From a virus, in IMG/VR virus record IMGVR_UViG_3300006789_000066, positions 1 through 37,317 of that record: a DNA stretch of 37,317 nt. One strand, given 5' to 3'. The notes under the pieces were generated by a model that saw only the letters and a list, made by a program, of their open reading frames with translations, was not told the DNA's origin and made no database searches. The position numbers and the translations under genes are program-made. Positions 1,363 to 33,551 of this stretch are shown here, one piece after another; position 1 is the stretch's first letter; each line of letters opens with the position of its first letter.

Positions 1363-1761
1363 ATGTCTGATATTATACAAAATTATCAAAAAGAACTTAA
1401 TGAGCACTTGGTAATAGATGAATTCACTTTAAAAGACGTGCAATTACAACTTCCCGGTAGGAGACATATATGGGTTGGTAGATTAATGAGACATAAACAT
1501 GAAGTTAATCAGTTAAAAAAGAAAAAGACAGAAAATCTTGCTGATTTAACAAGAAAGATACAAGAACAAAGTAATGTACGTTTATCTACACCAGCTGCTG
1601 AAAAAGTCGCTGAAAATACGGAACAAATAAAGAAAATAAATAGTGATCTACTTGAGCATTATTTGGTAATCGAATATCTTGAAAAAGTAGAAAAAATTAT
1701 GAGTTCTATTGGCTTTGATATAAGGAATATCATAGAAATACAAAAATTAGAGACACAATGA
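1363..1761 (+). CDS. uvsY: UvsY-like recombination mediator
   Basis: 132 aa, close to T4 UvsY (137 aa). UvsY helps load the UvsX recombinase onto gp32-coated single-stranded DNA during phage recombination-dependent replication. The protein is all-helical and basic in the middle (HKHEVNQLKKKK near residue 45) and ends in IEYLEKVEKIMSSIGFDIRN, which matches the conserved C-terminal helix of UvsY in marine T4-like phages (a pattern of the type YLE..I..I..RGF.I.N.I). UvsX, UvsW, gp46/47, gp41 and gp32 are all in the same window, which fits. The stop overlaps the next start by four bases (ATGA), so a sugar-metabolism gene is co-translated with it. Confidence 0.82.
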   Translation: MSDIIQNYQKELNEHLVIDEFTLKDVQLQLPGRRHIWVGRLMRHKHEVNQLKKKKTENLADLTRKIQEQSNVRLSTPAAEKVAENTEQIKKINSDLLEHYLVIEYLEKVEKIMSSIGFDIRNIIEIQKLETQ

Positions 1762-2240
1762 TAGATATTAGGCTTATTTTATTTGATATCGATGGTGTAT
1801 TAACAGATGGTAAAGCTGCTTATAATAGCAAAGGTGAAGTTATATCGAAATCATACAATCAAAAAGATATAACTGCTTTAAGAAGGTTTCATGCCGAGTT
1901 AGGTATAACTATTGCTTTATTTTCTGGTAGTTTAGACATAAACCCAGCATTTGCCGAAAGAAGAAAGTTTGCATTTCATCATGTATCGCATAGAAATGGT
2001 GAAAATAAGAGTCAAAAATTAAACGATATTTGTTTTGATTATAATACTCCTGCATCGCAAGTAGCATTTGTTGGAGATGACATACAAGATTTGGAAATTA
2101 TGAAACGTGTTGGTTATGCTTTTTGTCCTGAAGATGCTATTGATGAAATAAAAAAAATATCTTGCATATTACCCGTTAAAGGTGGTGACGGTGTTAGTTC
2201 TCACCTATTTGAATATATTAGTAATACATATAAATCATAA
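1758..2240 (+). CDS. HAD-family phosphatase, KdsC-like
   Basis: 160 aa, the size of KDO-8-phosphate phosphatase (KdsC) and of the phosphatase part of acylneuraminate cytidylyltransferases. HAD motif I is FDIDGVLTDG (residues about 9-18, nucleophile Asp in DxD), motif II is the Ser in ALFSG (about 53-57), motif III is a Lys near residue 84, and motif IV is FVGDDIQD (about 109-116). The C2-cap-less layout and the VLTDG sequence are typical of the KdsC subgroup. It probably removes phosphate from a sugar phosphate in the cytoplasm. It is followed after three bases by a sugar nucleotidyltransferase, suggesting a short sugar-activation pathway. The exact sugar cannot be read from sequence. Confidence 0.85.
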   Translation: MIDIRLILFDIDGVLTDGKAAYNSKGEVISKSYNQKDITALRRFHAELGITIALFSGSLDINPAFAERRKFAFHHVSHRNGENKSQKLNDICFDYNTPASQVAFVGDDIQDLEIMKRVGYAFCPEDAIDEIKKISCILPVKGGDGVSSHLFEYISNTYKS

Positions 2241-2243
2241 AGA

Positions 2244-2960
2244 ATGAACGTAGTTATTCCAATGGCTGGTAAATCGTCGGCTTTTAAAGAAGCTGGAATT
2301 GATATACCAAAACCTTTTATTGATATAAAAGGAAAAACAATGGTACAAAGAGCGTATGAAAGTATAGGTATAGACGCGAACTACTATTTTATTGTTTTAA
2401 AAGAACATGATAAAAAATACCATGCATATGACGTAATAAGTGAGTTTTGTCCAGAGGCAAAAATACTTTTTGTAGATGAAGTAACAAGTGGACCGGCTGA
2501 GACATTATTTGTTTCCAAAAAATTTATTCCTAATGACCAACCGTTGATTCAAACAAACGTGGATCAAGTATTAGATTGGGAACCAGATAGATTTATAAAA
2601 TTTATTGAAGATGAAGACCCAGATAGTGCTGTTGTAACATTATATACGGTAGATCCTCATTATAGTTTCATTGTTCCTGATCAAAACAACAACGGGGTGG
2701 TACTTAAAGAAAAAGAAGTACACTCATGTCACGGATTAATTGGTACCCATTATTGGAAAAAAGCAGATCTTTTCTTTAGTTCGTTTTTAGGAGCTAAAAC
2801 AAAAGGCTATAAGTACAATGATGAGATTTATGTGTCTTTAACCTTTAATGATTTACTGGATAGAGGTCATAATGTTAAAAACTATTGCCTAAAACAACAT
2901 GAAATACAGCATGTTATAGGAAGTCCAGATGAATTATCGATATATGAAAGGCAACTTTGA
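2244..2960 (+). CDS. Sugar-phosphate nucleotidyltransferase
   Basis: 238 aa, Rossmann-like GT-A/NTP_transferase fold. The N-terminal signature MNVVIPMAGKSSAF followed by DIPKPFIDIKGK (lysine that contacts the sugar phosphate) is the nucleotide-binding loop of enzymes that join NTP and sugar-1-phosphate. A NVDQVLDW segment near residue 110 supplies the metal-binding Asp. Typical lengths for the family are 230-260 aa. It lies between a HAD phosphatase and a putative glycosyltransferase, so it probably makes the nucleotide sugar that the third gene uses. No Shine-Dalgarno is visible. Translation is probably coupled to the preceding gene across three bases. Confidence 0.85.
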   Translation: MNVVIPMAGKSSAFKEAGIDIPKPFIDIKGKTMVQRAYESIGIDANYYFIVLKEHDKKYHAYDVISEFCPEAKILFVDEVTSGPAETLFVSKKFIPNDQPLIQTNVDQVLDWEPDRFIKFIEDEDPDSAVVTLYTVDPHYSFIVPDQNNNGVVLKEKEVHSCHGLIGTHYWKKADLFFSSFLGAKTKGYKYNDEIYVSLTFNDLLDRGHNVKNYCLKQHEIQHVIGSPDELSIYERQL

Positions 2961-3753
2961 TTGTACAATATTAGTTTTAAGTTCTGATTTTTATCAGCCT
3001 ATCTTAAAGATTTGGGATTTCTATCATCAAAAAAATTGGAAATGTCCTTATGACGTTATTACTGTTAGTAACAAAAAAAAGTACGAAAGCAAAAATATAG
3101 AATGTATAGTTACCGGTGTTCCTTGGGACGAAAATGCAAGCCATTTTAAACCAATGGTGCTTGAAGGTCTTAAAAAGGTAAAAACAAAATATGTACTTTT
3201 TATGGTGGAAGATCAAATTATTGTTAACAGAGTGGAGAATGATAACATATACCATGCATTAAACTTTATGGAAAACAATGATATTACCAAATTACGTTGT
3301 TTATCAATGCCAGAACCAGATTTACCACTTGAAGGAGACCCACAAGGACCTATAAATGATGAAAATTTTGGAACAATTTCAAAAGATAATGAATATAGAA
3401 ATTCTTTGCAAGCAGCAATATGGAATAAAGATAGATTTATTGAACTACTAAACAGCAAAGATGAAGATTTTTCAGGTTGGATATTAGAAACTGATAAAGA
3501 TTTCAGGGAATACTCCAAAAAATGGAAATATGTAGCTTGTAGACAAGGAAAAGGTGGTACTTTGTTATCAAGAAACGAAGGACAAACAGATTCTCCATTA
3601 ATTCAATATGTAGAATTGGTAAGATGGGGTAAGTTAGATCATATTTACTATGATTACTTTATGGATATGTTCAAAAAAGACAAAATCGACATATCTTCTA
3701 AGGAATACGAACCTTTTGGTGGTAATTTAACCAAAGAAGAACTTCCACAATAG
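2929..3753 (+). CDS. Putative glycosyltransferase, GT-A-like
   Basis: 274 aa (or 269 aa if the ATG at 2944 is used). The start overlaps the nucleotidyltransferase by 17-32 bases. No family is certain. The N-terminal part alternates strands and helices (CTILVLSSDFY, then YDVITVSN), and YVLFMVEDQII near residue 88 looks like the strand plus acidic metal/nucleotide-binding motif of a GT-A glycosyltransferase. A later SRNEGQTDSPL segment may contact an acceptor. It has no signal peptide or membrane helix, so it should be cytoplasmic. Its position as third gene after a phosphatase and an activating nucleotidyltransferase is the main support for a sugar-transfer role. Confidence 0.6.
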   Translation: MNYRYMKGNFDCTILVLSSDFYQPILKIWDFYHQKNWKCPYDVITVSNKKKYESKNIECIVTGVPWDENASHFKPMVLEGLKKVKTKYVLFMVEDQIIVNRVENDNIYHALNFMENNDITKLRCLSMPEPDLPLEGDPQGPINDENFGTISKDNEYRNSLQAAIWNKDRFIELLNSKDEDFSGWILETDKDFREYSKKWKYVACRQGKGGTLLSRNEGQTDSPLIQYVELVRWGKLDHIYYDYFMDMFKKDKIDISSKEYEPFGGNLTKEELPQ

Positions 3754-6221: not shown

Positions 6222-6704
6222 ATGCAAGCAAAAAAGCCTAAAAATGGAGTAAAAATTAAACCAAAGAGTAAAGAACATTATGTTAACTCAAAAGAATTTA
6301 AAGAAGCAATTGCAAAGTATTATACTACCGATGTTTGTAGTGAAGAATTAGGTGAAATGATTACAAAAATTGCTCATGGCTTGAGTTATGCACCGAACTT
6401 TATCAATTATTCATATAAAGATGAAATGATTGGTGATGCAGTAGTAAAAATGTTTACTGCTCTCTTTAATAAAAAGTTCAATTTAGATGCAACAGATTCT
6501 AATGGTAAGAAATACAACCCTTTTTCTTACTTTACAACTATTGCCTTCCATGCATTCATTAACAGGATTAAAAAAGAAAAACGTCACCACGAAGCTCTCA
6601 ATGAATATAAAGAGAGAGTCTACGAGGAAGCTTTAAATTCAGGCGACGAAGCTGAACAAAAGGTGTATGTTAAACCTGTTAGTGAGGATGATATATTCGA
6701 TTAA
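6222..6704 (+). CDS. 55: gp55 late-transcription sigma factor
   Basis: 160 aa (T4 gp55 is 185 aa). gp55 replaces the host sigma factor on core RNA polymerase and recognises the late-promoter -10 element. The C-terminal half shows the family's conserved block: PNFINYSYKDEMIGDAV near residues 58-74 and NPFSYFTTIAFHAFINRI near 101-118, followed by a basic KKEKRHH segment. These are the helices that bind the -10 DNA and the polymerase. The N-terminal about 25 residues are lysine-rich. Its presence explains the NATAAATA elements before the minus-strand genes. The partner coactivator gp33 is not clearly identifiable in the window, and the sliding clamp gp45, which also activates late transcription in T4, is at 30165. 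Confidence 0.9.
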   Translation: MQAKKPKNGVKIKPKSKEHYVNSKEFKEAIAKYYTTDVCSEELGEMITKIAHGLSYAPNFINYSYKDEMIGDAVVKMFTALFNKKFNLDATDSNGKKYNPFSYFTTIAFHAFINRIKKEKRHHEALNEYKERVYEEALNSGDEAEQKVYVKPVSEDDIFD

Positions 6705-7817
6705 TTATCCTACTGTACCTTGAGCTGTTACCTTCAAATTAGCAAGACTCCAACCGCCACCGTCACCACATAAGGTACCATGACCGCAATCTCCACCACT
6801 ATCTTTATACCAATGTGGTTCGTTAATTCCAGGAGACCAATCACCATGATAAGAAGGTGTAAACCACCAACCAACTTCCATAGCGTCTTTCAACTTACTC
6901 ATATCTAATGTATCACTACCAGGGTAAGCTGGTTCGTTCATATCAAATACGACGGCACTCTTTGAACCTTGTGATAAGGTAATGGTCATATTTGTATAAT
7001 CAGCATTAAAGACTACTTCCATATGAAATGAACCTTGATTCGGGTCAATTATATCAACTAAATCATGTACACCAGCTGTACCAGCTGCGGCTTGCATTTC
7101 ATCCCATTCCCAGCAAGGTGTATCAGCTGCTTGGGTAAATGAAACTTCATATCTTTGAGGTCCCTGTTTAGCATCTGCTAAATGCAAAGTGTGCTGAAAC
7201 ATTTTTTGACCATTTGTTTCAATAAAGTCGATTTCATTACAAAACGGGCATGGGTAGCCTGGGTCGCCTGGTTTAGGTTCAAATTCAGCATCACAATAGT
7301 TACCATTTCCTTTAGGTTGTGTGGCACTAGTAACTGCATAAAAAGCTGCATTCAACCAGTCACCTGTAAAATCACCCCGTTGCTTTAAAGCTGTTAAGTC
7401 AATATCAGCTTCTATTTTAGAAATGTTTTTATACCCTACTTTAGAACAAGCTCTTCCTGCTTTTACGTTTCCTGCAGTACCAAAACTAACTCCACCTGTT
7501 TGCACTACCGGATCAGCACCACAATTATTGTAATCAACATCAAATTCTACATCGTATTCTTGATCATCAGAATCGACTGCTTCTTCCTTTTCATCTTGAG
7601 GAAAATAACCAACCCAATAAACATAAGCTTTAGCATTAGGATCTTTAGAATCTGTTTCAAAATCAATTCCATCACCGGCAACGTCTCTAATCCAAATCTG
7701 ACCAGGGCCAAATAAAGTTGCGTTTACAGATGTCGTATTGACTCCCCAACCTTCGGTTAAAGGCAAATGGGCTAAATTATTCTTAAATTCGATGCTTTGA
7801 CTTACATGTTCTTCCAT
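6705..7817 (-). CDS. Late protein resembling clan GH-B glycoside hydrolases (GH7/GH16 fold)
   Basis: 370 aa. The motif CNEIDFIETNG (E195, D197, E200) fits the ExDxxE catalytic motif shared by GH7 and GH16 enzymes, in which the first Glu is the nucleophile and the last the acid/base. Further GH7-like context includes LNAAFYAV (155-162) and NYCDAEF (173-179) upstream, and a C-terminal GGWSLANLKVTAQGT resembling the last strand of the jelly roll. There are nine to ten cysteines, many in the second half, and no signal peptide. A late motif CATAAATA lies eight bases before the start. I infer a virion-associated polysaccharide-binding or -cleaving protein; loss of catalysis (lectin use) remains possible. 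Confidence 0.7.
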   Translation of the reverse strand: MEEHVSQSIEFKNNLAHLPLTEGWGVNTTSVNATLFGPGQIWIRDVAGDGIDFETDSKDPNAKAYVYWVGYFPQDEKEEAVDSDDQEYDVEFDVDYNNCGADPVVQTGGVSFGTAGNVKAGRACSKVGYKNISKIEADIDLTALKQRGDFTGDWLNAAFYAVTSATQPKGNGNYCDAEFEPKPGDPGYPCPFCNEIDFIETNGQKMFQHTLHLADAKQGPQRYEVSFTQAADTPCWEWDEMQAAAGTAGVHDLVDIIDPNQGSFHMEVVFNADYTNMTITLSQGSKSAVVFDMNEPAYPGSDTLDMSKLKDAMEVGWWFTPSYHGDWSPGINEPHWYKDSGGDCGHGTLCGDGGGWSLANLKVTAQGTVG

Positions 7818-7818
7818 A

Positions 7819-7842
7819 GTAAGAGTATTTATGCTCTCTTAC
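7819..7842 (-). promoter_or_regulatory. Late promoter CATAAATA inside an inverted repeat
   Basis: CATAAATA (7826-7833, minus strand) ends eight bases before the ATG at 7817. It is framed by a perfect 7-bp inverted repeat GTAAGAG/CTCTTAC (7819-7825 and 7836-7842). The repeat sits between the stop of the upstream gene (7845) and this start and could form a hairpin in the upstream gene's message. Confidence 0.6.
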
Positions 7843-7844
7843 CG

Positions 7845-8852
7845 TTACGCGTAGTTCTTGAACTCATCCCATACTTTATAGAAACACTTAATATGTGATC
7901 TATCTTCGTCTCCAAAATCTACCCAACTAGGATCTCCTTTAATATCATGGTTCCATTCCTGGAATTCTAAACAAAATTGCTTTCTTAAAACGTGATATGC
8001 AGAAAGTATTATCTCTTCTGTAAAGAAATCAGTTTCTGGTGGTTTAGACTTACATAATAACAATAAAGCTTTTTCATAAAATTTAAAAAATTCTTCAAAT
8101 TCGGATGGGTGTATACCCATAATACCACCTATTACCTGTTCACTTATACAACTATCTTCTTCTGATAGTCCATACTCTTTTTGTAGAAATTTTTGTAGCA
8201 AAGTTACATGGCTGGCATTATACCATAAATTGCCGTGCTTAACACCAATATATTTGTGTTCATCAATAAGATTGTTTATACCTTTTCCTATATCAGGTGT
8301 GTACATATTTTTCTCATTATATGGATAGTAAACTTTTTTGTTGAAGAAGTTATTAATTTCGACGCCACCCATACTTCTTGGGTTTAGTCCCCAGTGAGTT
8401 ATACCAGAATCAACCCAAAGAAAATTATCTGTATCATACGGGTTATCATCTGCCACTTCTTTAACCCAATACATTTTTCTATGACATAATATTTCACATC
8501 TTGCATGAAAGAAACCTGGTTCGTCTGGATTATCTTTTTGTCTTTCTTTAGTCTCTTTTTCTTGCCATTTAATTGTTCTTTTTCTATGAGTACCTATCTG
8601 TTTTTTAAATTTAAAATCACCTATCTCGCTTACTACAAGTTTATGCTTATTAGGGTGTTCTATATACTCAAGATAGTCGAAATATTTTTTAAGTTTTGGA
8701 TAACCTCTTTTATCGCAATATACAACCGTGGGTAGATTAAAATTATATATATTTTGAAAAGACGAGAAATAATATTGTTCTTGCCAACACCTACCTCCGA
8801 ACTCTCCTTCTCTTTCACCGTAATATATTGCTGTAACAAGTGTTGTACTCAT
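7845..8852 (-). CDS. HtrL/YibB-family glycosyltransferase-like protein
   Basis: 335 aa. The start TLVTAIYYGEREGEFGGR, the YYFSSFQNIYNFNLPTVVYCD segment (about 27-47) and ILCHRKMYWVKEV...NPYDTDNFLWVDSGITHWG (about 121-155) are the pattern of the HtrL/YibB family, whose members lie in LPS and surface-sugar gene clusters and are thought to be GT-A-like transferases. The acidic WVDSG motif is the likely metal site. No signal peptide. A TATAAT hexamer (8861-8866, minus) stands eight bases before its ATG, but there is no matching -35 and no NATAAATA, so timing is unclear. It is divergent from gene 47 and followed by the late GH-like gene. Confidence 0.75.
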   Translation of the reverse strand: MSTTLVTAIYYGEREGEFGGRCWQEQYYFSSFQNIYNFNLPTVVYCDKRGYPKLKKYFDYLEYIEHPNKHKLVVSEIGDFKFKKQIGTHRKRTIKWQEKETKERQKDNPDEPGFFHARCEILCHRKMYWVKEVADDNPYDTDNFLWVDSGITHWGLNPRSMGGVEINNFFNKKVYYPYNEKNMYTPDIGKGINNLIDEHKYIGVKHGNLWYNASHVTLLQKFLQKEYGLSEEDSCISEQVIGGIMGIHPSEFEEFFKFYEKALLLLCKSKPPETDFFTEEIILSAYHVLRKQFCLEFQEWNHDIKGDPSWVDFGDEDRSHIKCFYKVWDEFKNYA

Positions 8853-8877: not shown

Positions 8878-9939
8878 GTGAGCTCTGTAGATTTCAAACA
8901 ACCTAAAATCTGTTGTATTTCAGATATTCATTTAGGTGTACATCAAAACAACAGTAGTTGGCATAAGATACTTTTAGATTGGGCAAATTGGCTCAACGGA
9001 GAACTTCAAAAAAGAAAAATAAAAGACATAATGATATGTGGAGACCTATTTCATTATAGGGACGAAATTGCCGTTAACAGTCTTCATGTTGCTAATGAAT
9101 TTTTTGATATTCTTCAATCGTATAACATTGTTCTAATAACAGGTAACCATGATTGTTATTATAAAGACAATAGTCTTGTTAACTCTTTATCTATCTTAAA
9201 AGGTAGACCCAACTTAAACATAATAGATGAGTACTGTAATCAAACTCTTTTTGATAAAGACGTTACTTTTTGTCCATGGGGTACAAAAATAAGCGATATT
9301 AAACCTAACAGTGATATTATATTTGGACATTTCGAGTTATTAGACTTTAAAATGAACAATTTTAAGGTTTGTGATCATGGTGATTCACCTCAACAAATAT
9401 TACAAAAAGGAAGCAAGGTTATTACAGGTCATTTTCACTTACGTGATAAACGAAAATATAAAAATGGTGAAATTTTATACTTAGGAAACCCTTTTGAAAT
9501 GGATTTTGGTGATGCTGGTAGTACAAAAGGGTGGTATGAACTAGATTTTAATACTTTAGAAACAACATTTCATTTAAACAATATATCCCCAAAACATATT
9601 AAACTACCCTTAAGTGAACTTATAAAGCATGATGGTATAACAGATGAATTAAAGAGCACCGTTAAGGGTAATATTATTAAATTAGTGGTGGACAAAAATA
9701 TACAAGCCGACGATTTGGATATAATAATGGTTTGTTTGAATAACCTTAAACCTTTTACGATTAACGTTGATTACGAAATTAATTTTAATAAGTTTTCTGT
9801 AGAAGGTGAAGTAGAATACGAATATTCGGGTGTCGACTATGAAACAGCTATCACCGATTTTGTTAGCATGTTAGATATTAACAATAAGAAAGACGTTATA
9901 CAGTATACAATAGATTTATATAAATCATGCAAGGAATAG
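8878..9939 (+). CDS. 47: gp47 recombination nuclease subunit (SbcD/Mre11-like)
   Basis: 353 aa (T4 gp47 is 339 aa). It is a calcineurin-like phosphoesterase that with gp46 resects DNA ends for recombination-dependent replication. Metal-binding motifs are visible in order: SDIHLG (about 15-20), GDLFHYRDE (about 59-67), GNHDC (about 97-101), IIFGHFEL (about 142-149) and TGHFHLRDK (about 182-190), followed by the GNPFEMDFGD segment typical of phage gp47. The start is GTG, chosen because the promoter ends seven bases upstream. The last codons overlap the next gene by 13 bases. Confidence 0.92.
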   Translation: MSSVDFKQPKICCISDIHLGVHQNNSSWHKILLDWANWLNGELQKRKIKDIMICGDLFHYRDEIAVNSLHVANEFFDILQSYNIVLITGNHDCYYKDNSLVNSLSILKGRPNLNIIDEYCNQTLFDKDVTFCPWGTKISDIKPNSDIIFGHFELLDFKMNNFKVCDHGDSPQQILQKGSKVITGHFHLRDKRKYKNGEILYLGNPFEMDFGDAGSTKGWYELDFNTLETTFHLNNISPKHIKLPLSELIKHDGITDELKSTVKGNIIKLVVDKNIQADDLDIIMVCLNNLKPFTINVDYEINFNKFSVEGEVEYEYSGVDYETAITDFVSMLDINNKKDVIQYTIDLYKSCKE

Positions 9940-10691
9940 GTATAGTATTATTTACATTAGGTGGTAAAAACCTTAAGAGAGCCATGCGTGGCTTGACAGA
10001 GTTTTTAGATAACACCGTTATTGTTAATGACGGTAAAAAGGAATCAATAGACGAAAGCAAAGTAAAGAAATATATCAAACCTGCTTTTGTAAAATATCCA
10101 TCTGCTTGTTATAATTTGGGTATTAGAGAACTTCTCAAAGACGAATCAATAGAACATATTTTTATAGTTCATGATACCATCGAAGTTATTGACGATACGT
10201 TGTTTCAAGACTATATTGATGTAGCAAACAAAACAAATTTAAAAACTCTTTATTTTTGTTCACCTTCTGATGATCCTAGAGGTACTTTCGATAATGAAAG
10301 ACTAAAAATCAATATTGGCAAAGACAAAGAAATCACCCTTAACATGGGAACGTCGGGTGACTTGGTTTATATTCATAAAGACGTCTTTAAAAAGGTGGGG
10401 TTCTTTGATGAAAGATTTAGAGCTGCTGTAGAATGGTCTGATTTCTGTTATAGGGTTTCACAAAAAAATCTTTCTACACCCTTTCTTTGGTTCCCTCATT
10501 TAGACTGGGCTAGATCTAAGATGATTGTTTCAGATAATGCAGAAATGTATTCAGACAGCGTGGAAGATAGAATAATAAGAGGGTTAAAACTATTCCATAT
10601 GAAGTATAAATGTCAGATTAGTGAATTAATTGATACATACTCTAAAAAAGACGTTATTAATAAACTAAAAAACAAAACTAGATCTTCTTAG
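9927..10691 (+). CDS. GT2-like glycosyltransferase
   Basis: 254 aa, lying between gene 47 and gene 46. The sequence IEHIFIVHDTIEVIDDTLF (about 72-90) has the strand plus acidic motif where GT-A enzymes bind metal and nucleotide sugar, and GFFDERFRAAVEWSDFCYRV (about 152-171) is the typical GT2 second half, the E-W-SDF segment corresponding to the catalytic-base (ED/EW..D) motif. It has no membrane helix. The start overlaps gp47 by 13 bases, so it is co-translated with the nuclease subunit, which places it in the early/middle transcription programme. Substrate unknown. Confidence 0.7.
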   Translation: MQGIGIVLFTLGGKNLKRAMRGLTEFLDNTVIVNDGKKESIDESKVKKYIKPAFVKYPSACYNLGIRELLKDESIEHIFIVHDTIEVIDDTLFQDYIDVANKTNLKTLYFCSPSDDPRGTFDNERLKINIGKDKEITLNMGTSGDLVYIHKDVFKKVGFFDERFRAAVEWSDFCYRVSQKNLSTPFLWFPHLDWARSKMIVSDNAEMYSDSVEDRIIRGLKLFHMKYKCQISELIDTYSKKDVINKLKNKTRSS

Positions 10692-12551: not shown

Positions 12552-13799
12552 ATGTTTCAAACCCCCTTTCAAAACTCACCAAGACCTTTTGGATCAGCAA
12601 ACCCTTTTCAAAGTAATTTTACAGTTGGTGGTAAAGCGTTACCTGCTCAAGAACCATCGAAGGTGCCAGATGTAGCTCATGCTGGGCAAATTCCTCGGTT
12701 TATGAATTATGTAGCTGATTATGGTGGGTGTGGGTTTTGGAGAGTACTTTGGCCAGAATATCTATTAAATGCAAGCGGTAAATGCATGGTACATACATCT
12801 ACTTGCATGACGATGGACCCACAACACTATAGGCATTGTAAAGCATTAAAAATACAAAGACAAGCATCTGAAGATCATTATAAATTTACCCAACATTTAA
12901 AAGCAATTGCTGATAAACTGGAATTTAGATTAATTTACGAAATAGATGATATACCATTTAGAGAAGATATACCAGATTATAACAAATATAAATTTGCTTT
13001 TACAGATGATGATATAAGAGAAAATATTCAGAAGATTATGGAGTTATGTGATGAAATGACTGTTACATGTGAATTCATGAAAGATTATTTCACAGATAAA
13101 TTAGGGGGTAAATTACCTATTACAGTTATACCCAACTGCGTACCTAAATTCTGGATGGGTAATTATTACAATAGAGATAAAATTGAAAGAGATTACGAAA
13201 AATATAAACGCAAACCGAGAGTCGTTTGGTCGGGTTCGGGTGCACATATTGACGTTGATCAAAGAGTTAAAGGTAAAGATGATTTCCATCATATAAATGA
13301 TGCAGTAAAGAAAACAATAAATGATTTTCAATGGGTGTTTATGGGAGCAGTACCCCGTGAATTAGTACCTTATGTTGAAAACGGTAAAATAGAATTTCAC
13401 CCTTGGGCTGAACTTTTTAATTATCCAGAAAAAGTTTATACACTAAATGGTAATATGATGATTGCTCCGCTTCAAGATAATAATTTCAACAAATCAAAAA
13501 GTGATTTAAAATATCTTGAAGCTGGTTGTTTTGGCTTGCCTATTGCATGTCAAGATATTTGTACATATAAAAACGCTCCAATCAGATTTAATACCGGGGA
13601 TGAAATGGTTGATCAGATAAAAGCCGTGTTAGGTGACGAAAGACGGTTTATAAAAGAATCCGTCGGTGGTAGAAATTTTGCGGAGTCAAGATTTTTAGAA
13701 AAAGAAGAAAATATTGGAAAGTTTTTCGAGTCATATCAGTTTGCATATGGTTCTCCTCAACGTAAATACCTCAATTCTTTAGATGTTAACAAAGTTTAG
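12552..13799 (+). CDS. GT4-like (GT-B) glycosyltransferase
   Basis: 415 aa. The N-terminal about 45 residues are a Pro/Phe/Asn-rich, low-complexity segment (FQTPFQNSPRPFGSANPFQ). The enzyme part follows: YEIDDIPF (about 129-136), VTCEFMKDYF (about 168-177) and VIPNCVPKFW (about 192-201) match the first Rossmann domain of GT4 enzymes, and RVVWSGSGAH (about 224-233) opens the second. The donor-binding end SDLKYLEAGCFGLPIAC (about 316-332) corresponds to the family's E-x-x-A-x-G-x-P motif. It probably transfers a sugar from a nucleotide donor in the cytoplasm. A late promoter motif at 12536 suggests action on virion or surface at the assembly stage. Confidence 0.75.
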   Translation: MFQTPFQNSPRPFGSANPFQSNFTVGGKALPAQEPSKVPDVAHAGQIPRFMNYVADYGGCGFWRVLWPEYLLNASGKCMVHTSTCMTMDPQHYRHCKALKIQRQASEDHYKFTQHLKAIADKLEFRLIYEIDDIPFREDIPDYNKYKFAFTDDDIRENIQKIMELCDEMTVTCEFMKDYFTDKLGGKLPITVIPNCVPKFWMGNYYNRDKIERDYEKYKRKPRVVWSGSGAHIDVDQRVKGKDDFHHINDAVKKTINDFQWVFMGAVPRELVPYVENGKIEFHPWAELFNYPEKVYTLNGNMMIAPLQDNNFNKSKSDLKYLEAGCFGLPIACQDICTYKNAPIRFNTGDEMVDQIKAVLGDERRFIKESVGGRNFAESRFLEKEENIGKFFESYQFAYGSPQRKYLNSLDVNKV

Positions 13800-13835: not shown

Positions 13836-16424
13836 ATGTATAGGAATGTAGTTTACGAGCCGTCATTGGAACAAATGCGATTGTTCACTTGGGATGAAGA
13901 CGGGAATAGAATAGAAGTTTTACAAAGTTACAATCCATATCTTTATGTAGAACCAAAAGATAAGCGGCATTCAAATGCAACATCAATTTTTAAATCACCT
14001 TTACGTAAAATGGTGTTTAAAAGAGAGTCTGAAAGAAGACAATTTATTAGAAATAATAGCATTAAAAGACTTTTTGAAAATTTACCAATTAAACAACAAT
14101 TTTTATTGGACAATTTTTGGCAAGTAAATGAAACAGACGACTTTATTAAACACCCAATTAAGATGTTGTTGTTAGATATTGAGACATATTCACCAGATGG
14201 GTTTCCAAATATAGAAAATGCAAATCATGCAATTAATGTTATTACAGTTTATGATAACTTAGAGAAAAAGTTTTATACTTGGGGTACAAAAGAATATAAT
14301 GGTAAAGGTAGAGATGATGTAAAATACATTTATTGTGAAACTGAAAGGGTATTGTTTGCAAAATTTTTAGATTATCTAGAACAAGATTACCCAGATATAT
14401 TAAGTGGTTGGAACTCTGAGTTCTTTGATATTCCATATATTATTAAACGTTGTGAACGTATTATGGGGGAAGAACAAATGAAAAGACTTTCACCTGTTAA
14501 GAATGTTTATTATAGAAGCTTACAAGGTGCTTTTGGTAGACAACAAATTAGGTGGTATATAGAAGGTATAGCATTGTTAGACTATTTGGATATATATAAA
14601 AAGTTTGCACCTTTGCGTGAATCATATAAGTTGGATGCTATTGGTGAACTTGAATTGAATGAACGAAAGATAGACTTTCAAGGTATGGACCTTGCAACAT
14701 TGTCAGATGTTGATTGGGATAAATTTATTGATTACAACATTCAGGATGTAAACCTACTTGTACGTCTAGAAGAAAAATTACAATACTTAGGACTAATAAG
14801 AATGTTAGCTTATGTTGGGTGTGTAACTTTTGATGCAGCAATGGGTGCGTTATCTGTAATCAATGGTGCATTTTGTATACGTGCAAGACATAAACAACAA
14901 ATAATTCCTACTTTTATTAGGGGTGAAGATACTGGAAAGAATCCTGGTGCATATGTTGGTGAACCTCAACAAGGGTTTCAAAATTACATATTATCTTTTG
15001 ATGCAAATAGTCTATATCCAAATGTGATGATATCTTTGAACTTATCACCCGAAACAAAGATAGGGAAGATATTACAAAAAGACGATAATCAAATTGTTAT
15101 GGAAATGGTAAGCGGTAAGGTAAAAGAATTCACTTATCCAATGTTTGCTAAAATGATAAAAGATTATAAACTTACAATATCAAAAGCAAATGTAGTATTT
15201 CATCAACAAGAAAAGGGAATGGTACCCGAAATTGTAGATTATTATTATCAAAAACGAAAAGTATTTAAAGATGAGTATACTGATCTAAGAAAGAAACATG
15301 CAGTAATGAAAAAAGATGATCCTGACTATGAACAAATTGGGATCGAAGCTCAAAGAGCAGGTACAAAACAGTTAACAGTAAAAATCTTAATTAACTCAAT
15401 ATATGGTTATTTTGGTAACAAGAATGCACCTATTGGTGACGATGATATTGCATCATCTGTTACATTAAGTGGTCAAGCAGTAATTAAACAAAGTAATGTA
15501 ATTATTAGAGATTTTATCAAATTAAAAACAGGGTTAACAGATGAAGATTTAAAAAAGAAAGACCCAATTATTTACAACGATACAGATTCATCTTATGCAT
15601 CAATTGAATTGTTGATTAAGCATTTAGGATTGAACTTTAAAAATGAAAAGGGTGAAGTTCACGACGACATTTACAATATTGAAGATGAATTAGTAGAATA
15701 TCTAAACCAACAAATAATGATATGGGGTAAAAAATCCTTTAATAGTAAAGATTGTAGGTTTGTATTTAAACGTGAATGTATTGGTGAGGTGGGTGTGTTC
15801 TTGCAGAAGAAACGTTATGTGATGAACATACTCGATGATGAAGGTGCTAAGATAAACAAAACAAAATATACTGGGGTAGAGGTAGTAAGAACCACTTTGC
15901 CTAACTCATTAAAACCTCATATGAAAAATGTAATTGAGATAATGCTTAGTACTCAAGATTATCAAAAAACAAATGAAGCTATGAAAATAGTTTATGAAAA
16001 ATTTAAAAGTTTACATATTACTGATATTGCAAGTGTAATGGGATTAAAAGGGTATGAAAAATACGCAGGTCAATGTGAGGGTATGAAGACAGTAAAGGGT
16101 ATGCCGATACATGCAAAAGCAAGCTATTTTTACAATCAATTGGTAAAATTGCATAAACTTGATAAAAAATATGAACTAATTGGTTCAGGAGATAAGGTTA
16201 GATTCTTTTATGTAAAGAAACCAAACAGATATAATGTAGACTCTATAGCATACAAATATGAATGGCCTGTAGAATTTGAAGAATTCTTTAAACCTGATTA
16301 TGATAAGATATATCAAAAGTTAATCTTTGCTCCTATCGAAAGATTTTATAATGCAGTAAATTGGAAGTGTTATTTACCAGGCCAAGCAGTCCAATGTGAT
16401 TTGTTTAGTTTGTTATCCGAATAA
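13836..16424 (+). CDS. 43: gp43 family B DNA polymerase
   Basis: 862 aa (T4 gp43 is 898 aa). Replicative polymerase with 3'-5' proofreading. Exonuclease motifs: LLLDIET near residue 111 (Exo I), SGWNSEFFDIPYI near 190 (Exo II) and YNIQDVNLL near 304 (Exo III). Polymerase motifs: FDANSLYPNVM near 387 (motif A), KILINSIYGYFGN near 514 (motif B) and IYNDTDSSYASI near 577 (motif C). All catalytic aspartates are present. The C-terminus ends in QCDLFSLLSE, plausibly a clamp-interacting tail because T4 gp43 binds gp45 by its C-terminus. It has a near-consensus promoter of its own. Confidence 0.97.
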   Translation: MYRNVVYEPSLEQMRLFTWDEDGNRIEVLQSYNPYLYVEPKDKRHSNATSIFKSPLRKMVFKRESERRQFIRNNSIKRLFENLPIKQQFLLDNFWQVNETDDFIKHPIKMLLLDIETYSPDGFPNIENANHAINVITVYDNLEKKFYTWGTKEYNGKGRDDVKYIYCETERVLFAKFLDYLEQDYPDILSGWNSEFFDIPYIIKRCERIMGEEQMKRLSPVKNVYYRSLQGAFGRQQIRWYIEGIALLDYLDIYKKFAPLRESYKLDAIGELELNERKIDFQGMDLATLSDVDWDKFIDYNIQDVNLLVRLEEKLQYLGLIRMLAYVGCVTFDAAMGALSVINGAFCIRARHKQQIIPTFIRGEDTGKNPGAYVGEPQQGFQNYILSFDANSLYPNVMISLNLSPETKIGKILQKDDNQIVMEMVSGKVKEFTYPMFAKMIKDYKLTISKANVVFHQQEKGMVPEIVDYYYQKRKVFKDEYTDLRKKHAVMKKDDPDYEQIGIEAQRAGTKQLTVKILINSIYGYFGNKNAPIGDDDIASSVTLSGQAVIKQSNVIIRDFIKLKTGLTDEDLKKKDPIIYNDTDSSYASIELLIKHLGLNFKNEKGEVHDDIYNIEDELVEYLNQQIMIWGKKSFNSKDCRFVFKRECIGEVGVFLQKKRYVMNILDDEGAKINKTKYTGVEVVRTTLPNSLKPHMKNVIEIMLSTQDYQKTNEAMKIVYEKFKSLHITDIASVMGLKGYEKYAGQCEGMKTVKGMPIHAKASYFYNQLVKLHKLDKKYELIGSGDKVRFFYVKKPNRYNVDSIAYKYEWPVEFEEFFKPDYDKIYQKLIFAPIERFYNAVNWKCYLPGQAVQCDLFSLLSE

Positions 16425-16428
16425 AAAT

Positions 16429-17460
16429 ATGAGTAAATCTGAAAATAGATTAAAATTAAACGAACTAATGCCAGAATTAGCTGGTGAAGTATCTTCTTTT
16501 TTTGAAGATCTCGAACAAACAAAAACGGTAGACGAAACTATTTTTGTTATGGTACCAAGTTACAGGGATAAAGACCTTGATAATACGTTAACGGATTTAT
16601 ACCAAAAAGCAACCAACCCTGAACTACTAACTGTTTGTGTTTTTGATCAGTCTGAGCATGACGGCTATGTAAATTTTGATAAAACCAATATGCATTATAT
16701 ACATACTAATTATAGAAATGCAAAAGGTATAGGCCATGCAAGAAATATGATTCAAAATTTTTATAACAACGAAACTTATTTTTTGTCTATTGATTCACAT
16801 ATGAGATTTACTCAAGGATGGGATGTAAAGTGTAAACAAATATATAAAACTTTAAAAGACGATAATTGGAATCCTATAGTTACTAATTACTGTAATGAAT
16901 TAGTTTATGATCATGAAATAGACTTATATCCTGATGATGTAAAAGAACAATTTACAAAAATTGATAATTATTATATTAAAAAAGACGAGTTAAGTTATAT
17001 TGACATTAAAAAATACACAGACTATGATGGAAAGAGAGCTCGAAAAACTCCTGAAGATGTAGAAGGTGAATATAGGATGTCAGCTTGGATGTCTTTGCAT
17101 TTTGCATTTACAGAAGGGGTATTTTTAAGAAGGATGGGTTTTGATCCCGATCACTTTTTTTCTGGAGACGAGTATAATATGACACTTAGATCTTTTACTA
17201 ATGGTTATGACTTAATAAGCCCTTATGAACCGATTATGTATCATCATTATCGAAACGATTCATATAGAAATGAACCAGCAAACTATATTGTTGATAATAA
17301 AAAGTGGGCTGATTTAGATTCAAAAGGTATTTTAAAAAATAAACTTTTAACTTCAGGAGAAATCTGCACATGGGGTCTTGGTGATAATAGGGATATAGAT
17401 TCGTTTTTCAAATATATGAGAGATAAATCTGGTAAAAAATTGTCAGTTGATTTAGATTGA
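16429..17460 (+). CDS. GT60-like GlcNAc transferase family protein
   Basis: 343 aa from the ATG at 16429, four bases after the polymerase stop. An upstream GTG at 16396 is in frame but would overlap gene 43 and adds an unlikely leader. The pattern IFVMVPSYRDKDLDNTLTDL (about 37-56), VCVFDQSEHD, RNAKGIGHARNM, YFLSIDSHMRFTQGWD (about 112-127; DxH metal motif) and FFSGDEYNMTLRSFTNGYDL is that of the Skp1-type GlcNAc transferase family (Pfam GlcNAc, CAZy GT60). In eukaryotes these add GlcNAc to hydroxyproline. Bacterial and phage members have unknown acceptors. It is probably cytoplasmic and expressed with the polymerase. Confidence 0.8.
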   Translation: MSKSENRLKLNELMPELAGEVSSFFEDLEQTKTVDETIFVMVPSYRDKDLDNTLTDLYQKATNPELLTVCVFDQSEHDGYVNFDKTNMHYIHTNYRNAKGIGHARNMIQNFYNNETYFLSIDSHMRFTQGWDVKCKQIYKTLKDDNWNPIVTNYCNELVYDHEIDLYPDDVKEQFTKIDNYYIKKDELSYIDIKKYTDYDGKRARKTPEDVEGEYRMSAWMSLHFAFTEGVFLRRMGFDPDHFFSGDEYNMTLRSFTNGYDLISPYEPIMYHHYRNDSYRNEPANYIVDNKKWADLDSKGILKNKLLTSGEICTWGLGDNRDIDSFFKYMRDKSGKKLSVDLD

Positions 17461-19322: not shown

Positions 19323-20927
19323 ATGGCAAATATTGCTATCTACGGTTCGCATAACGGTGCGATTGCTTTAGAAGATAACGGTGAATATTATGTTATTGAA
19401 TTCGAACGGTTCTTTAATATAAAAAATATTGGTTTAGCTCAATATAAGCCGTTAAAATTTAGAGAAGAAGCTGTTTATGCAATCTTACAATACTTGGAGA
19501 AGGAGTTAGGTTATTCAGCTCCTTTTGATAATTTACTTCATATTAATACTGAATGTGTTCACGATGACATAACATATAGTTACAAGGATTTTATTCCTGC
19601 TAAGAATGTACTTGAAGGTTGGCATCATCACGCTCACGCAACTGGGTCGTTTTATCAATCTAATTTTCAAGAAGCTATTATCTTTAGCTTTGATGGTGGT
19701 GGTAATGATGGATTTTTTAATATTTTTACTGCTGATCGAAAGAACGGTGTAACTTATCTCGATAAGACTAACCCAGCTGATAGAACAGATTATGATCACG
19801 ATTTTGGGTTTCCTTATATGTGTTTTGCTCATTTTTGTCCAGATATAAGACAAGAATGGATATCAGACGGTAATTTAGTTTATAGTGGTAAAATAATGGG
19901 GCTGTGTAATTATGGTAAAGTTAATAAAGAATGGTTACCACATTTTAAAAGATTTTATTATTCTAAACCTGATGGCGAAAATTATCTAGCAAAGCTAAAA
20001 GAACACATTACACATAATTGTGGTTTAGTTTTTGATGAAAATAACAGATTACAAAAAGAAGAAAGTTGGGATGTTGCAGCAACTTCTCAAGCTGCCTTTG
20101 AAGAGTGTTTCTTTGAAGTAGTAGATCCATATTTGAAAAAATACGAAGACTTACCTATTATTATAACTGGTGGCTGTGGTCTTAATATTTTGTTAGCTAC
20201 TAAGATTAAAGAAATGTTTCCAAATAGACCAAGCTTTGTAGCACCTAATACAAATGACTGTGGTATAGCTGTTGGTTTGTTAGCTGGGTGGACAAAACCT
20301 GAAAACCCAATTGATATAACATATGGTGGTATGGAGCTTTTAGATAAAAATACATACCCTGCTTGGATTGAAAGTAATTCAGCTAAACCACTCGACTTTA
20401 CAATTGTAGCAAACGAACTAGCTAACGGAAAAATATTTGGTTGTGCTAGAGGTAGGTGCGAACACGGGCCTAGAGCTTTAGGAAATAGATCTATTTTTTG
20501 TAATCCAGCATTCCCAGAAATGAAAGACATTCTCAACTTTAAAGTAAAAAATAGAGAATGGTACAGACCTTTTGCTCCAGTTTGTAAGTTGGAAGATGTA
20601 TCAAAATATTTTGAATGGGAGGGTGAAAGTCGTCATATGCTTTATTGTCCGAAAGTAAGAGATGAATGGAAAGAAAAACTTTCATCAATTGCTCATATTG
20701 ACGGTACTGCAAGAGTACAAACCGTAACAAGAGAACAAAATGAGTTCTTATATGATTTAATTACCGTTTTTGAAGAAACGGCTGGTCATGGAGTTTTACT
20801 AAATACTTCATTTAACATAGCCGGTAAACCTATTTTGAATACTATTTCAGATGCAATGAAAGTCTTAGAATCTACTCAAATGGACTATCTTATTATAGAA
20901 GACTTTTATTATGGTAAGCATTGGTAA
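19323..20927 (+). CDS. Carbamoyltransferase (NodU/CmcH/TobZ family)
   Basis: 534 aa, full length for the family. Enzymes of this type form carbamoyl-adenylate and pass the carbamoyl group to a hydroxyl of a sugar or natural product. N-terminal YrdC-independent kinase-like half: GWHHHAHATGSFYQS (about 99-113) carries the metal-binding histidines, FSFDGGGNDGFF (about 119-130) the phosphate loop, and SGKIMGLCNYG (about 190-200) is conserved. C-terminal half: GCARGRCEHGPRALGNRS (about 373-390), the carbamoyl-transfer site, and GVLLNTSFNIAGKPI (about 491-505). All look intact. It probably decorates a sugar made by the neighbouring glycan genes. AAGGA overlaps the uvsX stop just before its ATG. Confidence 0.93.
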   Translation: MANIAIYGSHNGAIALEDNGEYYVIEFERFFNIKNIGLAQYKPLKFREEAVYAILQYLEKELGYSAPFDNLLHINTECVHDDITYSYKDFIPAKNVLEGWHHHAHATGSFYQSNFQEAIIFSFDGGGNDGFFNIFTADRKNGVTYLDKTNPADRTDYDHDFGFPYMCFAHFCPDIRQEWISDGNLVYSGKIMGLCNYGKVNKEWLPHFKRFYYSKPDGENYLAKLKEHITHNCGLVFDENNRLQKEESWDVAATSQAAFEECFFEVVDPYLKKYEDLPIIITGGCGLNILLATKIKEMFPNRPSFVAPNTNDCGIAVGLLAGWTKPENPIDITYGGMELLDKNTYPAWIESNSAKPLDFTIVANELANGKIFGCARGRCEHGPRALGNRSIFCNPAFPEMKDILNFKVKNREWYRPFAPVCKLEDVSKYFEWEGESRHMLYCPKVRDEWKEKLSSIAHIDGTARVQTVTREQNEFLYDLITVFEETAGHGVLLNTSFNIAGKPILNTISDAMKVLESTQMDYLIIEDFYYGKHW

Positions 20928-20946: not shown

Positions 20947-21735
20947 ATGAATAAAGCTGTAATGATTTTTAGTGGTGGTATGGATAGTGCTGCCATGTTA
21001 AGAATGGCTCAATTTTCATCTGGTGAACTGCATTGTTTAACTTTTGATTATGGTCAGAGGCATAAACGTGAATTAGAATGTTCAAAATTACAAATTGAAC
21101 ACGCTAAGTTAGTTAGTTTTAGTCACAATTTTGAAGATTCAGATGTACAACATAAAATTATAGATATTTCATTTTTAAAAGAAATGTTGACTTCAAGTTC
21201 ACTAACTAATGAAGAAATTGATAATCCTGATGTTAAAGATATGGTTGGTGAAGCACAACCAGTAAGTTATGTACCGTTTAGAAATCAAATGTTTTTATCT
21301 ATGGCTTGTGCATATGCAGAGTCAATTGGTGCTAATACAGTATTTCATGGTGCTACATTAGTAGATAGTTTAGCTGGTTATTGGGATGGAAGTGAAGAGT
21401 TTAGAGAACATTTTCAAACGTTAATATCATTAAACAGAACAAACGAAATAAAATTAGAATGTCCTTTACTTCATATGGATAAAAAAACCATAGTAGAATA
21501 TTGTGCAGGAAGTAGGGTAGATTTAAAGCACACTTATACATGTTATAGTGGTGAAGAAAAATCTGATGCAAGTACACCTAGTAGTGCTTTACGAATAAAA
21601 GGTTTTGCAGAAGCAGGGTTTATCGACCCAATTCCATACAAACAAGATTTAACAGAATATTGGGCAGAAAATAATTGTAAACCGTTTCCTGTTGACGAAG
21701 TGTTCGCTGATAGATACGGAACAAGAGGACCATAA
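20947..21735 (+). CDS. queC: QueC-like PP-loop enzyme lacking the zinc cysteines
   Basis: 262 aa. QueC converts 7-carboxy-7-deazaguanine to preQ0 using ATP and ammonia. The PP-loop FSGGMDSAA (8-16) and YVPFRNQMFLSMACAYAE (108-125) are clear, as is the C-terminal RIKGFAEAGFIDPIPY (216-231). The usual zinc site (one Cys, then CxxCxxC) is gone: only C199 remains and the expected positions read SDASTPSS (206-213). VPGRN is VPFRN and the GVNAVDYSGYPDC region reads GATLVDSLAGYWDG. A changed substrate or an amidating Gat-QueC-like role is possible; a class II glutaminase is encoded at 23004. FolE, QueD, QueE and DpdA are not in the window. Confidence 0.8.
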   Translation: MNKAVMIFSGGMDSAAMLRMAQFSSGELHCLTFDYGQRHKRELECSKLQIEHAKLVSFSHNFEDSDVQHKIIDISFLKEMLTSSSLTNEEIDNPDVKDMVGEAQPVSYVPFRNQMFLSMACAYAESIGANTVFHGATLVDSLAGYWDGSEEFREHFQTLISLNRTNEIKLECPLLHMDKKTIVEYCAGSRVDLKHTYTCYSGEEKSDASTPSSALRIKGFAEAGFIDPIPYKQDLTEYWAENNCKPFPVDEVFADRYGTRGP

Positions 21736-23003: not shown

Positions 23004-23645
23004 ATGTGTGCAATATTTGGTAGTTCGGAGAGACAACGGTTTATTTCTTTATATGAACTTAATAAAGATAGAGGTGGTTATGCATCTACTTTCTGTGGTA
23101 TAAAGGATGGTAAAATTAACGTCTATAAGAACAAACTATTTGATCTAGATAACGTGTACTTAGAAGATTGGGATTATTATCTAGGTCATCATCAAGCACC
23201 AACTAGTAGAGTAAGAAATTATGCTGAAAAAACTTCACACCCATTTAATTATGGTCGGTGGCATGTAGCTCATAATGGTGTATTGACTAATTATAGAGAC
23301 GTAACAGAAGCTAGTGATACAAAGGATATAGATACATCTTACATTCCAGCATATATGGAAGAATTAGACCACTTACCAGTAAAATGGGATGATAAACAAA
23401 TTTTAGAAGAAACATTTACATCATTTAAAGGAACCCATACATGTTGGGTTTGGGATGAAGAAAACAGTACATTGTATTTAACAAAAAATGGAAGTACGTT
23501 GTTTTCAAACAAAACAGAATTTTCATCTGTTAAGTTCGACGGTGGTAAATCATTATTAGATGGATATGTATATAAGATGCACGACGATAAAGCGTTTTTA
23601 GAATTTGTAAAATTTGAAGACAGTAATCCTTTTGCAGTATTCTAA
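23004..23645 (+). CDS. Class II (Ntn) glutamine amidotransferase
   Basis: 213 aa, glutaminase domain only. Cys2 after the initiator Met is the catalytic nucleophile (MCAIFGSS). LGHHQAPTSRVRN (about 60-72) supplies the glutamine-binding Arg, and HPFNYGRWHVAHNGVLTNY (about 78-96) contains the H-N-G motif of the GATase type 2 fold. It frees ammonia from glutamine. There is no fused synthetase domain, so it must pass ammonia to a separate partner. The QueC-like PP-loop enzyme at 20947 is the best candidate in the window. The predicted leaderless start matters here, because Cys2 must be exposed by Met removal. Confidence 0.88.
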   Translation: MCAIFGSSERQRFISLYELNKDRGGYASTFCGIKDGKINVYKNKLFDLDNVYLEDWDYYLGHHQAPTSRVRNYAEKTSHPFNYGRWHVAHNGVLTNYRDVTEASDTKDIDTSYIPAYMEELDHLPVKWDDKQILEETFTSFKGTHTCWVWDEENSTLYLTKNGSTLFSNKTEFSSVKFDGGKSLLDGYVYKMHDDKAFLEFVKFEDSNPFAVF

Positions 23646-23649: not shown

Positions 23650-24225
23650 ATGTCAGATTTATTTGATTACAGAGAGTCGTTAGATGAGAGCAATCGTGGA
23701 ATATACGATTTATTTGAAAAGTATAAACCCGAATCGGGTATCTTTATAGAAACAGGTTGTCATTTAGGTGGTGGTCTAGCAAAAGCTATACATGCTGGAT
23801 TTACTACTTTATATTCCTGTGATATAAACATGGAAAGAGTTGAAGCTTCAATTGAAAAAGTCTCTGAACTTGCTCAATATGGTGCAACCGTAGACCCGTA
23901 TATATACAACTGTCATTCAATATCATTTCTTCTCCAGGTTTTGCCAATTGTAGAAGAAGAAGCTCTATTTTGGTTAGATGCACATGATGAAGGCGGTGGT
24001 GTACCAGTATTAGAAGAATTAGTTCAAATTAAGGAACTATTTAAAAATAGAAAGAGTACAATCATGATTGATGACGTTCCATTGTACCTTAGTCAAGAAG
24101 GTATAGACAAACTTAAAGAAACCATTCGTGAAATTAACGAAGATTATGAATTTGAAACTCTAACAACTAATAAAGGGGGAAATTACGTTATTGTTGCTTC
24201 CATAGTTGAAAAAGAGGAAAAGTAG
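23650..24225 (+). CDS. SAM-methyltransferase-fold protein (second)
   Basis: 191 aa from the ATG at 23650, which follows the amidotransferase stop by four bases. An in-frame TTG at 23614 would overlap that gene and is less likely. The motif SGIFIETGCHLGGGLAKAI (about 29-47) is the SAM-binding loop (E-T-G-x-x-x-G-G), LYSCDIN (about 54-60) ends strand 2 in an acidic residue, and ALFWLDAHDEGGGVPVLEEL (about 103-122) with TIMIDDV (about 136-142) resembles FkbM-like or related sugar/small-molecule methyltransferases. Substrate unknown. A TAATAT hexamer lies two bases before the ATG, too close to be its -10. Probably co-transcribed with the amidotransferase. Confidence 0.68.
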   Translation: MSDLFDYRESLDESNRGIYDLFEKYKPESGIFIETGCHLGGGLAKAIHAGFTTLYSCDINMERVEASIEKVSELAQYGATVDPYIYNCHSISFLLQVLPIVEEEALFWLDAHDEGGGVPVLEELVQIKELFKNRKSTIMIDDVPLYLSQEGIDKLKETIREINEDYEFETLTTNKGGNYVIVASIVEKEEK

Positions 24226-24232
24226 CTATAAT
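24206..24232 (+). promoter_or_regulatory. Sigma70-like promoter of the GME-like gene
   Basis: TTGAAA (24206-24211), 15-base spacer, TATAAT (24227-24232), six bases to the ATG at 24239. It overlaps the end of the preceding coding sequence and fixes the downstream start at 24239. Confidence 0.68.
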
Positions 24233-24238
24233 ACTGAT

Positions 24239-32595: not shown

Positions 32596-33551
32596 CTGTT
32601 TTAGTTACAGGAGGGTACGGTTTTATTGGTCACCACTTGGTAGATCAATTACTAGATAACGGGTATAAAGTTATTGTTTATGACAAACAAACTTATGCAT
32701 GTGATTATGTTTACATAGACCGTGTAAAAAATCAAAAAGCTATACTCGGTGACATTCTAGATGTTAAAAAACTTGAAAGTGTTTTTAGAATACACGAATT
32801 TCATAAAATTTTCCACCTTGCAGCTGAATCTCATGTTGATAATAGTATATCTGATCCGAACGTGTTTGCGCATACAAATGTTATAGGCACGTTGAATATA
32901 TTGAACCTTGCTAAAAAGTACGGAAAGCAAGTGATCCACGTGTCAACCGATGAAGTTTACGGTGCATTACGTAATGATGATAAGAATTGGAATGAAAACC
33001 AACCCTTACAACCAAATTCACCTTACTCATCTACAAAAGCAAGTTCAGATTTAATAGCGCTTTCATATTTTAAGACATATGGATTAGATGTACGTGTAAC
33101 TCGCTGTTGTAATAACTTTGGTACAGGTCAGCATATAGAAAAACTAGTACCAAAATCGATATTGTCTTCGATTAACGATAAAGAAATCTTGCTTTATGGT
33201 GATGGTACCAATAAACGTGAATGGATTCATGCCAAAGATCATGCTGATGCATTAATATTAGTTTCAGAAAAAGGGCAACCTGGAGAAATTTATAATATTG
33301 GTTCGGGGGAAGAGTTTTCCAACAATCAACTTGCCAAAAAAATAATTAAATACACAAATGAAGACTCGGTAATAAGATATATTAACGATAGGCCGGGTCA
33401 TGATTATAGATATGCTTTAAATTTTTCGAAAATTAAACGTCTAGGGTTTAATCCGAAAAGAAGCATAAACAGCAGAAAGGAATGGAATGAAATTATTAAA
33501 TTTTATCAGGAACACTGGAAAACCAAAACCAAGATACCTGTACGCAATTAA
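32592..33551 (+). CDS. NDP-glucose 4,6-dehydratase (RmlB-like)
   Basis: 319 aa, the length of RmlB-type enzymes. NAD loop VTGGYGFIGHH (about 5-15), FHLAAESHVDNSI (about 74-86), the active-site STDEVYG (about 116-122, with the Asp-Glu pair needed for water loss), and NSPYSSTKASSDLI with catalytic Y-x-x-x-K (about 139-152), then RCCNNFGTGQH and RPGHDYRYAL. It converts an NDP-glucose to the 4-keto-6-deoxy sugar. Whether the nucleotide is dTDP or UDP cannot be told by eye. Coupled to the upstream reductase-like gene, so the two encode a complete short pathway. Confidence 0.9.
   Translation: MTVLVTGGYGFIGHHLVDQLLDNGYKVIVYDKQTYACDYVYIDRVKNQKAILGDILDVKKLESVFRIHEFHKIFHLAAESHVDNSISDPNVFAHTNVIGTLNILNLAKKYGKQVIHVSTDEVYGALRNDDKNWNENQPLQPNSPYSSTKASSDLIALSYFKTYGLDVRVTRCCNNFGTGQHIEKLVPKSILSSINDKEILLYGDGTNKREWIHAKDHADALILVSEKGQPGEIYNIGSGEEFSNNQLAKKIIKYTNEDSVIRYINDRPGHDYRYALNFSKIKRLGFNPKRSINSRKEWNEIIKFYQEHWKTKTKIPVRN

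Follow-up and report, generated by a model that had tools for sequence, protein, structure and literature searches.

The window, by which we mean the whole stretch of DNA analysed (37,317 nt), corresponds to a linear virus record of 37.3 kb and carries a replication set of the T4-like type; the B-family DNA polymerase of this set aligns at ~31% identity with cyanophage and pelagiphage gp43, over as much as 98% of their length. A complete ORF encoding a 370-aa GH7-like protein with an N-terminal beta domain was found on the minus strand (6705..7817, read from 7817 to 6705), and the plus-strand frame of the same interval was full of stops. The first-pass annotation, which had named no strand, was right about this ORF and about the features listed for its product: E195, D197, E200, LNAAFYAV, NYCDAEF and many cysteines (eight) were all present in the translation. 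Homologues in viral contigs showed identities of 100% (L001 and L002), 84% (L003), 80% (L004), 77% (L005) and 72% (L009). Comparison with the L003 homologue gave dN 0.094 against dS 0.79 (dN/dS ~0.12), so the gene is under purifying selection, and on the evidence of its sequence the ORF is a real gene. Upstream on the same strand lies a gene of the HtrL_YibB family (7845..8852, minus strand; PF09612, E = 1e-7). On the other side, a gene for a gp55-type late sigma factor (6222..6704, plus strand; phrog_234, E = 5.4e-29) converges with the GH7-like ORF tail to tail with zero gap, its last base abutting the ORF. Inspection of the window by eye also showed many sugar-nucleotide, glycosyltransferase, epimerase and carbamoyltransferase-like genes (1758-3753, 9927-10691, 12552-13799, 16396-17460, 19323-20927, 24206-25327 and 31579-33551), from which it would seem that the phage makes or alters a glycan. 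A QueC-like gene (7-cyano-7-deazaguanine synthase) and a class II glutamine amidotransferase gene, also read by eye (20947-21735 and 23004-23645), hint at a possible 7-deazaguanine DNA modification in this phage.

The start codon of the GH7-like gene is preceded, at a distance of 16 nt, by CATAAATA (7826..7833, minus strand), a T4-type late promoter -10 element. The T4 late -10 element is TATAAATA, and the octamer that we searched for was [TC]ATAAATA. A scan of both strands of the entire window detected only two copies, a strong depletion against the ~14 expected from base composition, and each of them stands 13-16 nt ahead of an ATG on the minus strand (7817 and 37256). The L003 contig contained three copies: the first 16 nt before the GH7-like homologue, the second 17 nt before the start of a different ORF and the third just before an ATG. 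Because the octamer is rare in the window, stands before minus-strand ATGs in both cases and recurs in L003, and because a gp55-type gene lies convergent with the ORF, the late promoter that had been proposed in front of this gene was borne out. The second copy precedes an ORF at 36834-37256 (minus strand), which is probably late as well since it carries the same element. In many early-strand plus genes (e.g. 13836, 18233, 30165 and 35806) we observed a TATAAT-like element ~8-20 nt before the start codon, a spacing that suggests near-leaderless transcripts for them.

Single-sequence searches with the GH7-like protein (Pfam, PHROGs, phmmer against PDB, and tblastn in isolated phages and plasmids) gave no match, an outcome that might by itself have passed for an orphan protein. 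Relatives were collected with a degenerate DNA pattern for C-x-E-[IM]-D-h-x-E-[TA]-N, which yielded 95 stretches in viral contigs. Of those that were translated, all except one proved to be obvious homologues; most are 280-310 aa long, and the contigs that hold them reach 267 kb. In 84,980 genomes of bacteria and archaea this pattern found 38 stretches, about the level of chance, and only one of them was a true member; the others were near-random or GH16-like. The sole cellular member found lies in a contig of a Planctomycetes MAG with ordinary chromosomal neighbours. This homologue (L138:2013-3389, minus strand) is a multidomain protein of 458 aa with a signal-like N-terminus. Similar results were obtained with profile searches, which detected no member of the family in 395 Bacteroidota genomes and one in 392 Planctomycetota genomes, in the same MAG. 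Members were also seen in very large contigs classed as viral, L183 (524,565 bp) and L164 (303,057 bp), which are either huge phages or misbinned bacterial sequence. The GH7-like family is large, common in uncultivated phages and almost only phage-borne, and it is apparently undescribed.

An alignment of 44 viral relatives (A3) served as the input for an AlphaFold2 model and for a family profile. The model of residues 85-370 (6708..7565, minus strand) reached a pLDDT of 91.5 and a pTM of 0.91. When it was compared with PDB structures by Foldseek, the matches included the GH16 carrageenase 9xl7 (E 2e-8) and the GH7 endoglucanase I of T. reesei (EG1, E 4e-8), with VvEG16, H. insolens Cel7B (HiCel7B), Cel7A enzymes, agarases and lichenases among the further ones. 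The structure prediction and fold search that had been proposed as a check therefore returned a predicted jelly roll of clan GH-B, a fold modelled here and found in GH7 and GH16 alike; a fold unlike that jelly roll, which would have counted against the proposal, did not appear. GH16 entries stood among the top matches, and the TM-scores were moderate (not above 0.55 when normalised to the query), so the fold alone does not tell the two families apart. An earlier AlphaFold2 model from only four sequences gave a pLDDT of 47 for the C-terminal domain; its fold matches were discarded, except those of residues 1-73, which we took cautiously.

GH7 and GH16 together make up clan GH-B, in which ExDxxE marks the beta-bulge active site (PMC6827312). 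The family profile built from A3 was searched against PDB sequences, and the best match was 8pof, annotated as a 'putative glycosyl hydrolase family7' (E = 4.3e-13). Eight of the nine matching chains were GH7, the ninth was a weak unrelated chain, and GH16 chains were absent from these matches. In profile-profile comparison GH7 scored a probability of 97.6 over 168 columns, and the similarity to GH16 was confined to 23 motif columns. Since the family had been collected by its catalytic motif, the 11 columns of that motif were masked in the profile tests; the unmasked comparison is biased in favour of GH16, because its GH16 sequences were picked up by the same motif. After masking, 8pof was still matched at E = 2e-8 and the hhalign probability for GH7 was 95.7 over 169 columns, with GH16 falling to 0.2. 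Reversed sequences gave no score in the masked test. These numbers count against a divergent GH16 enzyme whose resemblance to GH7 would reflect nothing but the shared heritage of clan GH-B. That reading has in its favour the ExDxxE motif of beta-bulge GH16 enzymes (PMC6827312), the existence of bacterial GH16-like proteins with 'CGEIDIMETNG' and the rank of GH16 structures in the fold search; the profile results and the collinearity of the YCDA and D-x-D/NAAxY blocks with GH7 speak against it, and we consider it quite unlikely. It was on the masked test that GH16 was rejected. The claim of the first-pass annotation that the protein is closer to GH7 stood as far as the relationship goes, but the Pfam GH7 model (PF00840) is blind to the protein: it matched neither the 370-aa protein nor the 44 members, nor, even at E<=10, six viral records (the window and five others). 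Because that model recognises none of them, the domain is filed as GH7-related within clan GH-B and not as certified GH7, and from these sequence comparisons the viral family is a GH7-related lineage and not a textbook member.

The catalytic motif E195-I-D197-F-I-E200 (7218..7235, minus strand) corresponds in the GH7 alignment to nucleophile, assisting aspartate and acid/base. Its conservation was assessed in relatives gathered with patterns from the C-terminal half of the protein only, which gave 76 loci, 75 of them alignable and 74 reaching the motif. E-x-D-x-x-E was kept in all 74, including variants that the first pattern would miss (ELD, ESN), so the motif is no coincidence. Invariant in these relatives were also the YCD block and a histidine, H212 in the window protein (7182..7184, minus strand), which aligns with the histidine of GH7 'TPHPC'. 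The tryptophan of 'WQGYSP', aligned to that of GH7 'SLWDD', was present in most members and is replaced by histidine in the clade of the window. As the triad is retained in every relative sampled outside the motif and the histidine and YCD block are invariant, a working retaining hydrolase is predicted as likelier than a lectin. The receptor-binding lectin that had been offered as the alternative to an enzyme is disfavoured by the same conservation: lectins are common among ConA-like folds and legume lectins appeared among the weaker Foldseek matches, but a catalytically dead jelly roll would have had to keep three acidic residues and a GH7-aligned histidine in 74 of 74 independently sampled relatives, and we regard it as very improbable.

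The C-terminal domain, from residue 85 onward, was common to the first five relatives examined, while their N-termini differed. An 84-residue N-terminal beta segment is shared by the window protein and L003, and L005 and L009 begin with lipoprotein signal peptides. In the window protein this segment comprises a beta domain (residues 1-73; 7599..7817, minus strand), found only in its close relatives, and an acidic linker of low pLDDT that separates the two domains (residues 74-84; 7566..7598, minus strand). In the four-sequence AlphaFold2 model, which is of modest confidence, residues 1-73 had a pLDDT of 76-88 over most of their length and of 58 at residues 21-30. Foldseek matched them, in this modest-confidence model, to ~72 residues of the Pam1 tailspike 7eea with a probability of 1.00 but an E-value of ~0.1. 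When the N-terminal domain was searched alone only the same phages were recovered, and three loci carry it. The usual N-terminus of the family is of another kind: a signal peptide with a lipobox was assigned in 51 of the 69 distinct family rows, a count that mislabels a few rows (e.g. L003), and a plain Sec signal in a few. The window protein lacks a signal peptide. Four further members (L012, L062, L031 and L061) show a basic helix-like N-terminus (MSKLSKFYDRIKKLFRRNKK or MEKIIKIYEQIKKLFG) with no clear signal peptide. In the tree the window protein groups with L003 in a single clade (100/99) that lies among the lipoproteins, a position that implies a switch in which the signal peptide was lost, the N-terminal beta domain gained and a late promoter acquired.

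Across 91 family loci the most frequent neighbours were nrdA, nrdB (both by Pfam) and glutaredoxin (by eye), and the GH7-like gene often lies between nrdA and nrdB. Given the lipobox majority and these neighbours, the usual form of the family is an exported envelope protein encoded with nucleotide-metabolism genes, and most members seem, from their predicted signals, to be exported to the infected-cell surface. In five loci, including L009:5819-7435, a sulfatase gene (PF00884) lies directly upstream of the GH7-like lipoprotein gene, a neighbourhood that suggests a sulfated glycan substrate in those five phages. In 17 loci the family gene adjoins a gene for a second phage lipoprotein (HEGxYAFCGASGAxPTGK...GPSISNLAM), which gave no match in Pfam or PHROGs and is fused to the C-terminus of the GH7-like protein in L038 and L090. 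This second lipoprotein may be a functional partner of the GH7-like domain. The first-pass annotation had pictured a virion-borne enzyme of a new kind. It is not a one-off but belongs to a large viral family whose members are mostly predicted exported lipoproteins; for the window protein itself, its late promoter, its missing signal peptide and the weak fold match of its N-terminal domain are consistent with a virion location.

We think it probable that the gene encodes a late-expressed, GH7-related retaining beta-glycanase acting on host surface polysaccharide. Such a compact clan GH-B enzyme would hydrolyse a beta-linked polysaccharide with retention of configuration, with E195 as the putative nucleophile, D197 as the assisting residue and E200 as the acid/base. 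In most relatives the signal peptide and lipobox would tether the enzyme to the infected cell's envelope. For the clade of the window, where the signal would have been lost and an N-terminal beta domain and a gp55-type late promoter acquired, these same changes indicate a protein made late that most likely travels on the virion or is set free at lysis. Most simply, the window enzyme would be a surface glycanase that was co-opted to work from the outside, whether on virions or in the lysate. The reality of the gene, its fold, the tie to GH7, the conserved triad, the late-promoter setting and the spread of the family are computed results, and catalysis, the glycan target and the place of the protein on virions or in the lysate are inferred from them. 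Cutting of a host surface glycan (capsule, exopolysaccharide or a cellulose-like matrix) could then ease access to the cell or escape from debris. The sulfatase genes directly upstream in five loci fit work on sulfated glycans, and the planctomycete homologue, part of a multidomain protein whose N-terminus looks like a signal sequence, was counted in favour of a glycanase.

The alternative that deserves most weight keeps the enzyme at the surface of the infected cell, in an auxiliary role such as glycan feeding, superinfection block or prevention of re-adsorption, the window version doing the same or being released at lysis and never being a virion component. The majority of the family are predicted lipoproteins, many loci lie in nrdA/nrdB/glutaredoxin clusters and not in structural gene blocks, and the clade of the window is nested among lipoproteins, all of which suits such a role; against it, the window protein is without a signal peptide, its N-terminal domain is weakly tailspike-like and its gene has a late promoter. 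We give this reading an appreciable but lesser chance of being correct. The homologue in one planctomycete MAG could also be taken to mean that the gene is cargo (a moron), recently acquired from a cellular GH7 and with no role for the phage. The strong purifying selection on the GH7-like gene, the wide and deep viral diversity of the family and its near absence from the sampled genomes (0 of 395 Bacteroidota, 1 of 392 Planctomycetota) speak against this, and it is hardly credible.

GH7 supplies fungi with their main cellulases, and its known members are mostly eukaryotic. In the literature that we searched, which left most subscription journals beyond its coverage, no description of GH7-type genes in phages was found. 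What is new is a variant on GH7 that is mostly viral and may stand as a family of its own in clan GH-B. A bolder version would make it a new phage-evolved clan GH-B family, sister to GH7, of envelope-displayed glycanases that share a prokaryotic or viral ancestor with the eukaryotic GH7 enzymes, the window enzyme having been recruited onto the virion; we consider this speculative and rather doubtful. If it were true, GH7 would not be a eukaryotic invention, since the eukaryotic and viral proteins would go back to a common prokaryotic or viral ancestor. Spread over many contigs of uncultivated phages and overlooked by both Pfam and PHROGs, such a GH7-related family would open a new supply of compact beta-glycanases, would show phages placing GH7-related enzymes on the infected-cell surface and would supply prokaryotic relatives with which the origin of GH7 could be tested.

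Among known systems, the phage domain is most like GH7, especially the compact 321-aa 8pof, with which it shares collinear D-x-D, N-A-A-x-Y, Y-C-D-A, C-x-E-x-D-x-x-E-x-N and T-x-H blocks over ~170 columns and, in the predicted model, the clan GH-B fold. It is shorter than classical GH7, with ~286 aa compared with 320-440 aa in solved GH7 chains, several cysteines are conserved, and the family reads 'EIDxxETNG' where GH7 has 'EMDIWEAN'. Unlike GH7 as defined by PF00840, its members are phage-encoded, mostly predicted lipoproteins and outside the Pfam model. With GH16 of the beta-bulge type the domain shares the jelly-roll fold and the ExDxxE motif, and ETNG occurs in some GH16 proteins, but profile similarity outside the motif was not detected. 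A possible role on host surface glycan is held in common with the tail-borne depolymerases and tailspikes of phages, one of which, the Pam1 tailspike 7eea, has a domain weakly matched by the N-terminal 72 residues of the window protein; unlike these proteins, the family described here has a GH-B jelly roll as its catalytic domain, and its place on the virion is putative. Viral auxiliary carbohydrate-active enzymes, of which the chitosanase of a soil virus is an example (PMC9485262), are likewise phage-encoded glycoside hydrolases that possibly act outside the core phage cycle. The soil-virus chitosanase belongs to a different family, whereas the GH7-related proteins are numerous, come from diverse phages and recur in the neighbourhood of nrd genes.
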